A DNA stretch of 35,312 nucleotides, taken from the NCBI GenBank assembly GCA_028122555.1, contig JAOHSH010000009.1, positions 1 to 35,312 of the forward strand. The letters are read 5' to 3'. Positions 1,523-6,002 of the stretch are shown here, one piece after another (positions within the stretch are counted from its first letter, which is position 1; each line of letters starts with the position of its first letter). The notes beneath the pieces are model-generated. The model had not been told where the DNA came from and searched no databases. It worked only from the letters and a program-made list of their open reading frames with translations. A program made the translations under genes and the position numbers. The stretch comes from Methylophilaceae bacterium (lineage in GTDB: Bacteria > Pseudomonadota > Gammaproteobacteria > Burkholderiales > Methylophilaceae).

Positions 1523-2804
1523 AAATATTTTTATCTTAGGATTATTTTTATTTTCTAATTTTACATTTGCCAAATTAGACATCCAACATTGGAAATCAGA
1601 TAATGGAGCCCGTATATATTTTATTGAAAATCATGATTTACCAATATTAGATATTAACGTTGATTTTAGGGCTGGAAGCGTCAAGGACACCATACAAAAT
1701 AGTGGATTGGCATCACTTACAAATCATATGATGGTCTTAGGATCAGACGGAATAAATGAAGAAGATCTAGCTAATAAGTTTATAGATTTGGGCGCTCAAC
1801 TTGACAGCTCCTTTGATCAGGATAAAAGTGGGTTTAGTGTAAGAACATTATCTGATAAAAAAAACGAGGCTGTTGATTTATTAACATTGGTTCTTCATAA
1901 ACCCAATTTTGATAGTGATATTTTGGAAAGAGAAAAGAAAAGATATATTGCAAGTATAAATCAATCAAAAACAATGCCAAGCTCTATTGCTTCAAAAGCT
2001 TTTATGAAAGCTTTATATAATCAACATCCTTATGGCTTACCAAGTTCTGGCGAAGTTGATACTATTAAAAAAATAAGAAAAAAAGATCTACACGATTTCT
2101 ATACAAATAGTTATTTGTCAAATGAATTATCAATTGTAATTGTAGGTGATATTTCAAGAAGAGAGGCTGAAAATTTTGGTAATAAGATTAGCCTAGGGTT
2201 TTCTGAAAATAAAATGATTTCAGTAATCCCCTCAGTTGATTACAATAAAGGTCAAAATATTGAAATTAGTCATCCTGCAAAACAAGCTCATCTTTTTTAT
2301 GGAGCCCCAATAATTAAAAGAGGAGACCCAGATTTTTTAACGTTATACTTAGGAAATTATATTTTAGGTGGTGGTGGGTTTGTATCAAGGCTAACACAAG
2401 AAATTAGAGAGGATAGAGGTTTAGCCTATAGTGTTTATAGTTACTTTATGCCATTTATTGAAGTAGGTCCTTTTCAAATAGGAATTCAAACAAAGAAGAG
2501 CCAAGTAAAACAAGCAAAAGAATTAATTCAAAAAACTGTCTCTGACTTTATTAAGAATGGTCCAACTAGAAGTGAATTAAGAAGAGCAAAGGATTTTATG
2601 ATTGGTGGGTTCCCACTAAGACTTGATAGTAATAAAAAGATCCTTGAATATGTAAGTATGATGGCATTTTATGGGTACCCATTAGATTATCTTGAAACAT
2701 TTACTGATAAAATTGATAAAATAACAGCTGAAGAAATTAAATCTGCATTTCAAAGGCGAGTTGATATGAGTAAATTTTCTACAGTTATTGTTGGTAGTGA
2801 GTAG
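1512..2804 (+). CDS. M16 peptidase-like protein, non-catalytic partner subunit
   Basis: A 430-residue M16 protein with a signal peptide (about residues 1-20, ending FTFA before KLD). Where its neighbour has HLLEH this protein has Ser68-Leu-Thr-Asn71-His72. The first His and the catalytic Glu are lost, so it should not bind zinc or cut by itself. It keeps the Arg/Tyr pair in the C-terminal domain (Arg299 and Tyr306, in IREDRGLAYSVYS), which the upstream subunit lacks. This matches the two-gene M16B pattern described for bacterial heterodimers such as the Sphingomonas SPH2681/SPH2682 pair, with one active site shared between subunits. ATG at 1512 has AAAGGA about 9 bases upstream, inside the end of the first gene. 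Its 3' end overlaps rsmD. Confidence 0.92.
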   Translation: MLIKNIFILGLFLFSNFTFAKLDIQHWKSDNGARIYFIENHDLPILDINVDFRAGSVKDTIQNSGLASLTNHMMVLGSDGINEEDLANKFIDLGAQLDSSFDQDKSGFSVRTLSDKKNEAVDLLTLVLHKPNFDSDILEREKKRYIASINQSKTMPSSIASKAFMKALYNQHPYGLPSSGEVDTIKKIRKKDLHDFYTNSYLSNELSIVIVGDISRREAENFGNKISLGFSENKMISVIPSVDYNKGQNIEISHPAKQAHLFYGAPIIKRGDPDFLTLYLGNYILGGGGFVSRLTQEIREDRGLAYSVYSYFMPFIEVGPFQIGIQTKKSQVKQAKELIQKTVSDFIKNGPTRSELRRAKDFMIGGFPLRLDSNKKILEYVSMMAFYGYPLDYLETFTDKIDKITAEEIKSAFQRRVDMSKFSTVIVGSE

Positions 2805-3336
2805 CCAAAAAAAAGGTTCAGTAAAAATTATTGGTGGTACATGGAAAAGAAAAAATATTTTTTTTCACGAGTCTGATAATTTAAGACCAACATTAAATAG
2901 AGTAAGAGAGATATTATTTAATTGGTTAGGCCAGGATTTATCGAATAAAGTCTGTCTCGATTTATTTTCTGGAAGTGGTATATTAGGTTTTGAATCTCTG
3001 TCAAGAAATGCTAAATCATGTCAATTAGTTGATAATAATGTTAAAGCTATTTTAAATCTTAACGATAATAAAAATAATTTAAGTGCTACAAATGCCTTAA
3101 TTATAAATTCAACAGCAGAAAATTTTCTAGAAAATAATGCACAGCTTTTTGATATTATTTTCTACGATCCTCCATTTTCAATAGCTGATCCTAATATTCT
3201 TTTAACTAAAATTAAAAATCATTTAAAGCCTAATGGCATCATATATTTTGAAACAAATAAACAATATTTAGGTAAAGAATTTAAAATTTTAAAGAATTCT
3301 AAAGCAGGAAAGGTATACTTTTGTTTATTACAATAA
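2797..3336 (+). CDS. rsmD: 16S rRNA (guanine966-N2)-methyltransferase
   Basis: RsmD-type Rossmann methyltransferase that uses SAM to methylate G966 of 16S rRNA in the assembling 30S subunit. Seen: the family start KIIGGTWKRK; the SAM-binding motif LDLFSGSGILGFESLSR at about residues 55-70; and the catalytic DPPF at about 124-127. Length of 179 residues is normal. No ATG fits. In-frame starts are TTG 2788, TTG 2791 and GTG 2797. I chose GTG 2797 because it gives a normal N-terminus and overlaps the peptidase stop by only 8 bases; there is no clear Shine-Dalgarno, so translation may be coupled to the upstream gene. The rsmD-coaD pairing is very common in proteobacteria. Confidence 0.93.
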   Translation: MSSQKKGSVKIIGGTWKRKNIFFHESDNLRPTLNRVREILFNWLGQDLSNKVCLDLFSGSGILGFESLSRNAKSCQLVDNNVKAILNLNDNKNNLSATNALIINSTAENFLENNAQLFDIIFYDPPFSIADPNILLTKIKNHLKPNGIIYFETNKQYLGKEFKILKNSKAGKVYFCLLQ

Positions 3337-3349
3337 AAAAATAGATTTT

Positions 3350-3832
3350 ATGAATGCAATATATCCAGGTACTTTTGACCCACTAACATTAGGCCACGAA
3401 GAAATTATTTATCGAGCTGCTAATCTTTTTGATCATCTATTAGTTGCAGTTGCTAAAGAATCTCCAAAATCTACGATGTTTCTCCTAGAAGACAGGTTAA
3501 AATTAATTGAAATTATCTCGAGTCAATATTCTAATGTTACTTTTAGCTCTTATGATTGTTTGACTATTGATTTTGCAAAAGCTAATAATATAAATGTGGT
3601 TGTAAGAGGTGCACGAAATTCAACTGATTTTAATTATGAATCACAAATTGCTCAAATGAATAGTACGATGGATAACACCTTAGAAAATATTTTTTTAATT
3701 GCGGCAGATCCCTTTAAATCAATTAATTCCTCACTAGTTCGTCAAGTGATTGATTTAAATGGAGATTATTCTAAATTTGTATCACATGAAGTTGCTAACT
3801 TTTTAAACAATATTAAAGTAAAGACTTCATGA
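3350..3832 (+). CDS. coaD: Pantetheine-phosphate adenylyltransferase
   Basis: CoaD (PPAT) transfers AMP from ATP to 4'-phosphopantetheine, the penultimate step of coenzyme A synthesis, in the cytoplasm. The N-terminus carries the nucleotidyltransferase signature GTFDPLTLGH (residues 7-16, with the T-x-G-H active site at 13-16). VVRGARNSTDFNYE and the C-terminal NSSLVRQVI are the expected substrate- and ATP-binding segments. Length of 160 residues is normal. It starts 13 bases after rsmD with no obvious Shine-Dalgarno (only A/T). The stop codon shares ATGA with the next start. In related genomes a ferredoxin gene often follows coaD; here an oxygenase-like gene takes that place. Confidence 0.96.
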   Translation: MNAIYPGTFDPLTLGHEEIIYRAANLFDHLLVAVAKESPKSTMFLLEDRLKLIEIISSQYSNVTFSSYDCLTIDFAKANNINVVVRGARNSTDFNYESQIAQMNSTMDNTLENIFLIAADPFKSINSSLVRQVIDLNGDYSKFVSHEVANFLNNIKVKTS

Positions 3833-4479
3833 AATATAATGTTCATCACTTTAACCCTAACCCTGGATATCTTTCATATAATCTTACTCAAGAAGAGATG
3901 AATTTTTTATGGAAGAGAATCGATGAAGCGAATAAAAAACATGATGTTATTAATGCTCAATTAGCAGGGAATATTTCTAAATCTCTTAATATGGGCTTAT
4001 ATGATCTTGATCCAATCTCCAAGATAGTTATGCCACTTTGTAGTGAATATCCAAAACAATTTGGACTTCCATATCGTTCTCAAGTCTCTGGTTTATCTGA
4101 TACTGAATCAAGACTTACTGAGTGGTGGGTAAATTATCAATTTCAAAATGAATTTAATCCCATGCATGCGCATAATGGAGTATATAGCTGGGTAGTTTGG
4201 ATGAAAATCCCTACTGAATCTGAAGAACAAAATTCAATTCCAATAGCAGCTAATAGCAATTCTCAAGGGAAAATTTCAAACTTTTATTTTACTTTCACAG
4301 ATACTTTAGGAAAAATAGTTAATTACGAAATTGCAATGGGTAAATCTGTTGAGGGTACTTTAGTTCTATTCCCAGCACAGTTAAAACATTCTGTTAATCA
4401 GTTTTATAATTGTGATGAACCAAGAATTTCTGTAGCGGGTAATATTAGTTTGTATTCATACCCACCAAAAAATAAATAA
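3829..4479 (+). CDS. Putative 2OG-Fe(II) oxygenase-like protein with an H-x-H motif
   Basis: A 216-residue protein that resembles the small 2-oxoglutarate/Fe(II) oxygenase-like family (Pfam 2OG-FeII_Oxy_5 type) common in marine bacteria and cyanophages. The double-stranded beta-helix core is recognisable. WWVNYQFQNEFNPMHAHNG gives His113-x-His115; SWVVWMKIP is the following strand; GTLVLFPAQLKHSV gives the distal His187; Arg199 lies 12 residues later, where 2-oxoglutarate is normally held. Classical enzymes have H-x-D/E, whereas here the carboxylate position is His115. No signal peptide is visible, so it is probably cytosolic. ATG overlaps the coaD stop by four bases, implying coupled translation. 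The substrate cannot be told from sequence; family assignment is by eye. Confidence 0.65.
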   Translation: MKYNVHHFNPNPGYLSYNLTQEEMNFLWKRIDEANKKHDVINAQLAGNISKSLNMGLYDLDPISKIVMPLCSEYPKQFGLPYRSQVSGLSDTESRLTEWWVNYQFQNEFNPMHAHNGVYSWVVWMKIPTESEEQNSIPIAANSNSQGKISNFYFTFTDTLGKIVNYEIAMGKSVEGTLVLFPAQLKHSVNQFYNCDEPRISVAGNISLYSYPPKNK

Positions 4480-4499
4480 ACTAATAAAAGGCATTAAAA

Positions 4500-4889
4500 A
4501 TGAGAATACTTCATAGCATGCTTAGAGTTAATGATTTAAAAGAATCAATTGATTTTTATCAAAATATTTTTGGAATGAAGGTTTTACGTCAAAAAGACTA
4601 CCCTGAAGGAAAATTTTCACTTGCTTTTATGGGTTATGGAGGTGAGAAAGAAGTTACAGTTATTGAGTTAACTCACAATTGGGGTACTGATAATTATGAT
4701 CATGGAAATGCTTTTGGCCATATTGCCATTGAAGTTGATGATGTTTATATAGCTTGTGAAGAAATAAAGATTAAAGGTGGAAATGTAGTTAGAGAAGCAG
4801 GCCCTATGATGGGATCAAAGTTACTACTAGCATTCGTTGAAGACCCTAATGGCTATAAAATAGAGTTAATTCAAAAAGACACATTTTAA
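4500..4889 (+). CDS. gloA: Lactoylglutathione lyase (glyoxalase I)
   Basis: GloA isomerises the hemithioacetal of methylglyoxal and glutathione to S-lactoylglutathione, detoxifying methylglyoxal in the cytoplasm. All four metal ligands of the E. coli-type (nickel-activated) enzyme are present at the same numbers: His5, Glu56, His74 and Glu122. The C-terminal [14 protein letters not shown] is the family signature. The short form (129 residues, no eukaryotic-type insertions) fits the bacterial Ni enzyme. AAAGG lies about 8 bases before ATG 4500. It is the last gene of the plus-strand run; its stop ends at 4889, directly against the dnaJ stop on the other strand. Confidence 0.95.
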
Positions 4890-6002
4890 TTATTCAAAAA
4901 AATCTTTAACTGTATCAAGCCAAGTTTTAGATCTAGGACTATGTTTGTCACTATCAGCTTGATTCATTCGCTCTAACTCTTCTAGAATATTTTTTTGTTT
5001 TTCAGTTAGCTTAACTGGTGTTTCAACTACAACGTGACAGTGTAAATCACCTATCTGATTTTCTCTAACTGGTTTAATACCTTTGCCTTTTAATCTAAAT
5101 GCTGCACCTGTTTGTGTTTCAGGAGGAATTTTTATTTTAGCATTTCCATCAAGAGTAGGAATTTCTAATTCACCACCAAGTGCTGCAGTAGAAAAACTAA
5201 TAGGCATTTCACAGTGTAAATTTGCCCCATCACGTTCAAAAATTTGATGCTCCTTTAAATTAATAACTACATAAAGATCACCTGTAGGCCCTCCATTAGT
5301 TCCAGCTTCGCCTTCACCCGAAAGTCTAATACGATCACCATCATCTACTCCAATAGGTATTTTAACTGATAATGTCTTAGTCTCTCTGATGCGGCCTGAC
5401 CCATCACAATCTGGACAAGGATCTTTAATAGTCGTTCCTACACCATTACAATTTGGACATTCTTGTTGAACTGAAAAGAAGCCTTGCTGCATTCTAACTT
5501 GTCCTTGTCCATGACAAGTTCCACATTCAATTGGTTGAGATCCCTTTTTTGCACCTGATCCTTTACATGATTCACATGAGACCATTACTGGTATTTTTAT
5601 TTGATTTTCTGTTCCTTTAGCTGCTTGCTCAAGTGAAATCTCCATATTAAATCTAAGATCAGCACCACGATAAACATTAGATCTCGTATTTGATCTTCCA
5701 CCTCCAAATATATCGCCAAATATATCGCCAAAAGCATCACCAAAATCTGCACTACCAGCGCCACCCATATTTTGATCTACGCCAGCATGCCCATATTGAT
5801 CATAAATTGTTTTTTTTTGTGGATCGGATAAGACATCGTAAGCTTTTTTGACCTCTTTGAAGGTTTCAGTTGCTTCAGGATTGCCATCATTACGATCTGG
5901 ATGATGCTTCATTGCAAGCTTTTTATAAGCTTTTTTAATTTCAGTATCTGAAGCTTGTTTATTTAAACCTAAAGTATCGTAGTAATCTTTTTTATCAGCC
6001 AT
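4890..6002 (-). CDS. dnaJ: Chaperone protein DnaJ (type I Hsp40)
   Basis: Full-length 370-residue co-chaperone. The J domain has HPD at residues 34-36, which triggers DnaK ATP hydrolysis. A Gly/Phe-rich linker with repeated GDxFGDIFG units follows. Next is a zinc domain with four Cys pairs ([32 protein letters not shown]) and then the substrate-binding C-terminal domains. It is the last gene of grpE-dnaK-dnaJ, 63 bases after dnaK. The start ([13 protein letters not shown]) is canonical but has no Shine-Dalgarno. Instead a perfect 16-bp hairpin ends 7 bases before the ATG, which may lower DnaJ output relative to DnaK or control initiation. Confidence 0.97.

Follow-up and report, generated by a model that had tools for sequence, protein, structure and literature searches.

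A PF13759-type oxygenase gene, probably gained from viruses, at the site of the coaD-linked ferredoxin gene in Methylophilaceae

The gene described here lies between coaD and a gloA-like gene in the window, the whole stretch of 35,312 nucleotides that was analysed, and encodes an oxygenase of the PF13759 family in the chromosomal slot occupied by a YfhL-type ferredoxin gene in relatives of the same genus. The explanation that we hold to be likely as a whole is that a PF13759 iron oxygenase was gained horizontally once, probably from marine myoviruses, replaced the coaD-linked ferredoxin, came under purifying selection and decayed in one lineage. The new elements of this work are the displacement of a conserved ferredoxin gene at a single site, whose stages can be traced, and the H-x-H motif found across the family. 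The case is a clean one, in which a virus-type enzyme replaces an iron-sulfur protein and the ancestral, replaced and decayed states can be seen in related genomes. The features of the locus are listed in Table 1.

Table 1. Features of the oxygenase locus, in positions of the window. A3 is the alignment of the window protein with its relatives.
Feature	Positions	Strand	Basis
rsmD-like methyltransferase gene, upstream neighbour (name presumed from the sequence)	2788..3336	+	ORF; homologue 5' of coaD in 25/26 loci, the 26th being cut at that point
coaD, phosphopantetheine adenylyltransferase	3350..3832	+	TIGR01510, 162.1 bits vs cut-off 103.3
PF13759 / phrog_81 2OG-Fe(II)-type oxygenase gene, 216 aa, ATG start	3829..4479	+	ORF, Pfam, phrog_81, predicted fold
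coaD stop / oxygenase ATG overlap, 4 nt (ATGA)	3829..3832	+	ORFs, sequence
Slot of the YfhL-type ferredoxin gene in genus relatives; without ferredoxin in the window	3833..4479	+	locus comparison, genome search
His113-x-His115 codons, candidate metal ligands 1 and 2	4165..4173	+	sequence read directly (His113 4165-4167, His115 4171-4173); invariant in 59/59 A3 rows; HxH in 96/96 relatives
His187 codon, candidate metal ligand 3	4387..4389	+	invariant in 59/59 A3 rows
Arg199-x-Ser201 codons, candidate 2-oxoglutarate carboxylate clamp (RxS)	4423..4431	+	A3 conservation; Arg199 codon 4423-4425 read directly
gloA-like gene (lactoylglutathione-lyase type), downstream neighbour (name presumed from the sequence)	4500..4889	+	ORF; matched in 27/31 genus genomes

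Family, predicted fold and metal motif

The oxygenase scored 40.2 bits with PF13759 (2OG-FeII_Oxy_5, cut-off 27) and is a member of that family, one of the two profiles that the initial annotation had named for a check. The other, TIGR02466 of NCBIfam, gave a weak match over residues 93-206, at 24.7 bits where its cut-off demands 62.5, and the protein is not a member of it. All 59 rows of A3, in which the window protein is aligned with 58 relatives encoded in viral contigs or bacterial genomes, matched PF13759 at E ≤ 0.01. The HxH...H arrangement and the downstream arginine are shared with the wider matches of this family, from which no defining difference was seen. The PF13759 profile, however, spans residues 99-204 alone and the N-terminal half of the protein is of phage type, the phrog_81 profile ('2OG-Fe(II) oxygenase') being matched over the full length (residues 1-212, E 4.1e-26). 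Likeness to the cyanophage cluster T4-GC 180 is suggested by the notes of four annotated matches that carry this label. Whereas phrog_81 and T4-GC 180 are phage groups, the window gene is chromosomal, stands in a string of methylotroph housekeeping genes and forms a long separate branch in the tree. The protein is a member of a known and functionally unexplored family, and would be a soluble, single-domain, iron-dependent enzyme.

The AlphaFold2 model calculated from A3 (mean pLDDT 91.2, pTM 0.88) has revealed a predicted double-stranded beta-helix of the 2OG-Fe(II) superfamily, in agreement with the frame first proposed for this protein, and 93 PDB chains were retrieved with the model by Foldseek at E 0.001 or better. 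The closest folds in VIA-align were two uncharacterised proteins, 3bvc from Roseovarius (Z 14.9, rmsd 3.4, 170 residues aligned) and 2rg4 from Oceanicola (Z 14.7, rmsd 3.3, 168 residues aligned), both with S-H-I-H at the motif and with 12-14% identity to the window protein in the structural alignment. They were followed by the prolyl-4-hydroxylase (P4H) of P. putida solved with EF-Tu (4iw3, 4j25; Z 14.2), HIF prolyl hydroxylase 2 (PHD2, 13.4) and AlkB (12.9), and the 50 matches listed consist of PHD2, P4H, AlkB, other oxygenases and the two uncharacterised chains. Because Z values within 1 of each other are a tie, this list identifies the superfamily and not the substrate. PDB sequence searches with the window protein or its profile gave chance-level matches alone, and the P. 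putida enzyme, whose triad is HxD, had no sequence match.

Textbook 2OG oxygenases bind iron through an HxD/E...H triad, and a triad of three histidines is unusual among 2OG enzymes. The window protein has histidine at the acid position. The initial annotation had located His113-x-His115, His187 and Arg199 in this reading frame, which was confirmed from the sequence, and had presented the missing Asp/Glu as an oddity; the residue is indeed missing, but this is no deviation, because HxH was found in all of the 96 relatives fetched (near-copies included), none with Asp or Glu at the second ligand position. The three histidines and Arg199 are invariant throughout A3, and Ser201 is kept in at least 90% of its rows. 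A wider search with PF13759 in 200 Pseudomonadota genomes gave 37 matches in 23 genomes, and 30 of these were fetched, including the window gene and a second match in the window genome. The motif was reached in 28 of the 30 and was HxH in every one, with the reservation that the search profile may favour HxH-bearing members; the third histidine was present in 30/30 and the arginine in 29/30, followed two places later by Ser (22), Thr (4), Val (2) or Cys (1). H-I-H or H-N-H is also found in four repeat-fused PF13759 proteins of the same genus. The 'missing acid' is consequently a family signature and, as far as can be judged from sequences, HxH is the rule in PF13759, in the phage subfamily and beyond, that is, in a large uncharacterised oxygenase family common to ocean phages, Prochlorococcus and Proteobacteria.

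Conservation and predicted fold suggest that His113, His115 and His187 bind Fe(II) within the beta-helix. The RxS arrangement, seen in the sequence, is consistent with 2-oxoglutarate being held by Arg199 and Ser201, in which case a side chain or a small molecule would be hydroxylated with release of succinate and CO2; the family might also use another cosubstrate or none. Among the papers listed for PF13759, cyanophage oxygenases, OM43 genomes, HXH or three-histidine enzymes and 2RG4, none was seen to treat the metal site of PF13759 or what the family does, and PMC10872708 makes no mention of oxygenase, ferredoxin, 2OG or coaD. The iron motif of AspH is given as HXG...H in the accessible part of PMC12816917, and SidB was modelled as HXH...E according to the portion available of PMC11481915.

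The oxygenase gene at the ferredoxin site

The start of the oxygenase gene overlaps the coaD stop, as originally described, and a gap of 20 bases lies between its own stop and the gene that follows. No terminator-like site was present in positions 2700-5100 (0 vs a mean of 0.6 in shuffles), which permits rather than demonstrates co-transcription, and the oxygenase is probably co-transcribed within the rsmD-coaD-X-gloA string, X being the variable slot. Both GC content and third-position GC of the gene resemble those of its neighbours and do not signal a foreign origin.

In genus relatives the slot belongs to another, unrelated protein, an electron carrier. A ferredoxin ORF of 82-88 aa lies within 330 nt upstream of gloA in 22 of the 26 genus loci read, the remaining four being the three oxygenase loci and that of G011, where the ferredoxin adjoins coaD and is further from gloA. 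The copy of G005 belongs to the YfhL family (NF033683, 131 bits vs a cut-off of 86). Whole-genome searches at E < 1e-30 found the YfhL-type ferredoxin in 23 of the 31 genus genomes; the tally rises to 26/31 at E 0.001, the extra matches, in G022, G046 and G004, being weak and either partial or of 34% identity within longer ORFs. No match was obtained in the window genome (G000) or in G017, both incomplete, and the search in G004 gave a single match of 28 residues (E 0.001) in an ORF of 110 aa elsewhere. In five other ferredoxin-negative genomes the locus is absent or disrupted: no coaD match was found in G042, G002 and G022; in G010 (99% complete) the contig ends at coaD, so that the slot is outside the assembly, and gloA and the YfhL-type ferredoxin are both unmatched; and G046 has many stops and a completeness of 47%. 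The genus genomes are therefore distributed as 23 with ferredoxin, three with oxygenase or its stub, none found with both and five in which neither was seen.

Outside the genus but within the family, genome G402 (locus L170) carries the order rsmD-coaD-fdx-gloA, and a ferredoxin gene stands by coaD in 15 of the 29 other Pseudomonadota coaD loci read, L170 included, so that the ferredoxin is taken as the ancestral state. The earlier remark that a ferredoxin often follows coaD thus holds, but the gene has not simply moved aside, since no copy was found in the incomplete genomes. A Fer4_7 search in eight genomes revealed that the three with the oxygenase locus still encode larger Fe-S proteins, and that each has a ferredoxin-like ORF of 110-116 aa. 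Since these three genomes are 69%, 77% and 92% complete, one cannot be sure that the YfhL-type ferredoxin is absent from the rest of them; its loss from the whole genome in the three lineages is likely, judging from the searches. The coaD-linked 2[4Fe-4S] ferredoxin gene of P. aeruginosa is described as essential, with its role left open, in the available part of PMC2984482, and position and type suggest that the YfhL-type ferredoxin of the genus is its counterpart. The lineage seems to be without a ferredoxin whose counterpart is essential in P. aeruginosa and, if true, it shows a small-genome cell living without the coaD-linked protein of that type. The double statement that PF13759 comprises three-His 2OG oxygenases across marine viruses and bacteria, and that a virus-type enzyme displaced here a coaD-linked ferredoxin of the essential type, is put forward tentatively, at somewhat under even chances.

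The window genome (857 kb in 41 contigs, 69% complete) is that of a Methylophilaceae lineage that we read as belonging to the marine OM43 group. A two-row profile matched the oxygenase in only 3 of 187 family genomes, which substantiates its first description as an accessory gene. Methylophilaceae bacterium AH-578-B19 (G017, JAOLWQ010000007.1) has a full-length orthologue of 64% identity at the same site, and G004 retains there a stub of 35-37 residues, about 550 bases having been lost from the middle of the gene so that the remnant runs into gloA. The matching arrangement in G017 and the stub in G004 exclude an assembly artefact. In a carB tree of 27 genomes, made by a quick method with SH-aLRT support only, the three genomes form one starred clade (97) nested among ferredoxin bearers, with G004 and G017 as sisters (95) and G002, in whose assembly the coaD locus was not found, as the next relative (99). 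The simplest history compatible with this nesting is one swap followed by one decay. Vertical inheritance with many losses is disfavoured by the same tree and by the 184 of 187 family genomes without a match. In G044, G005 and G043 (L036, L037, L040) rsmD is 71-73% identical to that of the window in the part compared; carB and coaD place these genomes with G009, and rsmD may have recombined between lineages.

Differences between the oxygenase genes of G000 and G017 amount to 55, 43 and 90 at codon positions 1, 2 and 3, with dN 0.271 and dS 0.970 (Nei-Gojobori), and all candidate catalytic residues are kept. The codon-position bias and the lower dN indicate that the protein is under constraint, although its neighbours have diverged less (dN 0.140 for coaD and 0.114 for gloA). 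In G004 the gene was mostly lost and is dispensable. The preferred history would accordingly be a single horizontal gain, most probably out of the marine myovirus gene pool, in the ancestor of three close marine Methylophilaceae, followed by retention under purifying selection in two lineages and large deletion in the third.

Origin of the oxygenase gene

The window protein matched 192 of 50,697 phage records, with S-SM2 as the best (46.5% identity), and the phages were named as Synechococcus, Prochlorococcus, cyano-, Pelagibacter or marine single-cell viruses. Relatives in viral contigs reached 46% identity (80 best of 531 candidates). A non-exhaustive pattern search of one genome per species (84,980 species) turned up 16 loci, namely that of G017, 11 in Prochlorococcus, two in SAR116, one in Rhodobiaceae and one in 'Proteobacteria TMED61'. 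H-x-H relatives are hence common in marine phages and picocyanobacteria, just as the initial annotation had stated. The TMED61 contig (L158, NHDO01000094.1) carries an ORF just 5' of the oxygenase copy and no clear chromosomal genes, and may be viral.

In a tree of 72 rows, the G000/G017 pair, on a long branch (1.07), joined the cyanophages S-SM2, S-B64, S-E7 and S-SCSM2R, together with viral contigs and the TMED61 row, with support of 88/90, and the same grouping was recovered at 80/87 without four long rows; the branch to the viral subclade was not starred. AU tests, for groups picked after inspection of the tree, rejected the union of the pair with Prochlorococcus (p 0.008) and a single clade of the 16 bacterial rows (p 0.0015), but not a union of the pair with SAR116/Rhodobiaceae (p 0.095). 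This last result and the unstarred branch leave room for a bacterial donor. The horizontal gain suspected at the outset is borne out by the trees, the AU tests and the carB phylogeny, and the sequence comparisons point to a viral donor as the likely one. Of the two results that the initial annotation had named as refuting it, lack of a profile hit together with another fold, or vertical inheritance throughout the order, neither was obtained.

No close donor was found among the phage records, viral contigs and bacterial species searched, and plasmids gave no match to the oxygenase. Methylophilales phages were absent from the phage tallies (192 records for the window protein, 193 for that of G017 and 210 for that of Mosig). 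A viral scan with the conserved N-terminus of the pair retrieved one relative of 29% alone, and single-protein viral scans none. A 2OG oxygenase, H176, is reported for the Methylophilales phage Melnitz-2 in the accessible part of PMC9004378; it was rejected as donor, being matched through the other oxygenase of Sf-FS3, between RecA and primase.

The coupling to coaD proposed in the initial annotation holds in position, but the idea that coaD was imported with the oxygenase has been dropped. In the identity table, which covers 16 of the 26 genomes, coaD of the three oxygenase-locus genomes is 75-83% alike among themselves and 33-50% alike to the other 13, and most other distant pairs are 37-51% alike, so the divergence is not special to these three. 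Among the 60 coaD-matching phage records listed of 64, there was no Synechococcus, Prochlorococcus or Pelagibacter phage. In Sf-FS3 a nucleotidyltransferase gene (L054:2513-2971) overlaps the oxygenase start by 4 nt and mimics the coaD arrangement; it was discarded as coaD (28.9 bits vs a cut-off of 103.3), its best NCBIfam match being rfaE_dom_II (56.9 bits, cut-off 181.5), and it passes the cut-off of the general domain TIGR00125 alone.

Gene contexts and candidate substrates

The contexts of the phage and viral relatives are mixed, so that no pathway was inferred from them. Nucleotide-sugar epimerases, tail proteins, other oxygenases and a helicase loader or SbcC-like gene occur in viral contigs, and a baseplate hub gene in S-E7. 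DNA repair and an influence on 2OG levels have been guessed as roles of cyanophage 2OG oxygenases in the portion available of PMC3037559, and their functions have not been specifically investigated according to the accessible text of PMC9602691.

Hydroxylation of a host protein on a prolyl or another side chain, comparable with the action of the P. putida P4H on EF-Tu, and of host or virion proteins in phages, is weakly ranked first from structural models and repeat-fused members, as a tentative candidate that we would not yet back against all the others together. P4H and PHD2 are the best structural matches after the two uncharacterised chains, the domain stands behind a long repeat region read as TPR in same-genus members (four proteins, three loci), and some viral relatives adjoin tail-type genes (L068, L069 and S-SM2, where a tail fibre gene occurs with other oxygenases). 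The strength of this reading is reduced by the nearly tied AlkB, fold alone showing no function, and by the tail genes being only part of the contexts.

An oxygenase of small molecules or glycan precursors (sugar, lipid or nucleotide-sugar) is a possible though rather unlikely assignment, suggested by L078, which is flanked on both sides by nucleotide-sugar epimerase PHROG matches, by a glycosyltransferase gene two genes upstream in S-SCSM2R and by a gene read from sequence as sugar-epimerase near the Rhodobiaceae copy; these are three contexts alone among those examined, and nothing similar lies beside the Methylophilaceae gene.

Somewhat less probable still is a nucleic-acid oxygenase with AlkB-like repair or base modification. 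Replication and recombination genes (DNA polymerase, UvsX/RecA, clamp-loader or recombination endonuclease) are found near the homologues of P-SSM2, S-SSM7, Sf-FS3, metaG-MbCM1 and pelagiphages, but the copies of P-SSM2, S-SSM7 and Sf-FS3 belong to a different starred subclade (98/90). Within the nearest subclade, S-B64 has gp3 and, three genes downstream, UvsY, in L086 an exonuclease gene and a helicase-loader gene flank the homologue, and in L140 it follows an SbcC-like gene; the other neighbours in that subclade are unrelated to DNA, and no DNA gene adjoins the bacterial copy. The AlkB fold match and the printed suggestion of DNA repair agree with this assignment as far as they go.

A non-functional passenger left by the insertion would fit the large deletion in G004 and the restriction of the gene to three genomes, but the constraint between G000 and G017 and their intact candidate catalytic residues largely refute it, and it is given very little weight. 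The least probable role is that of a functional substitute for the lost ferredoxin, or of a CoA-synthesis partner in the gene string, since against the one-site alternation stand the G004 site, without both ferredoxin and intact oxygenase, the other ferredoxin-like ORF in each of the three genomes and the fact that, to our knowledge, an oxygenase of the PF13759 kind is no electron carrier.

Several additional observations were made on genes of related type. The gene annotated as 'ferrochelatase' that adjoins the oxygenase in S-SM2 (L053:3243-3974) had no NCBIfam match at E 0.01, contains an H-T-D stretch and may itself be an oxygenase; in L074 a neighbour of similar kind gave a match to the 'ferrochelatase' PHROG. 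Viral contigs L099, L102, L104, L108 and L142 encode proteins of 505-523 aa with two oxygenase-like halves and H-x-H in each. The phrog_81 profile was matched by 30 of the 31 genus genomes, nearly all through other proteins, which are mostly ORFs of about 490-550 aa that match in their C-terminal part (L005, L016, L018 and others); a TPR-like repeat region and H-x-H are present in those that were read. Further phrog_81 matches in the window genome are G000:C11:10336-10920 and G000:C3:29660-29785, and three phrog_81 proteins are clustered in G042:C11 and also in G002:C37.
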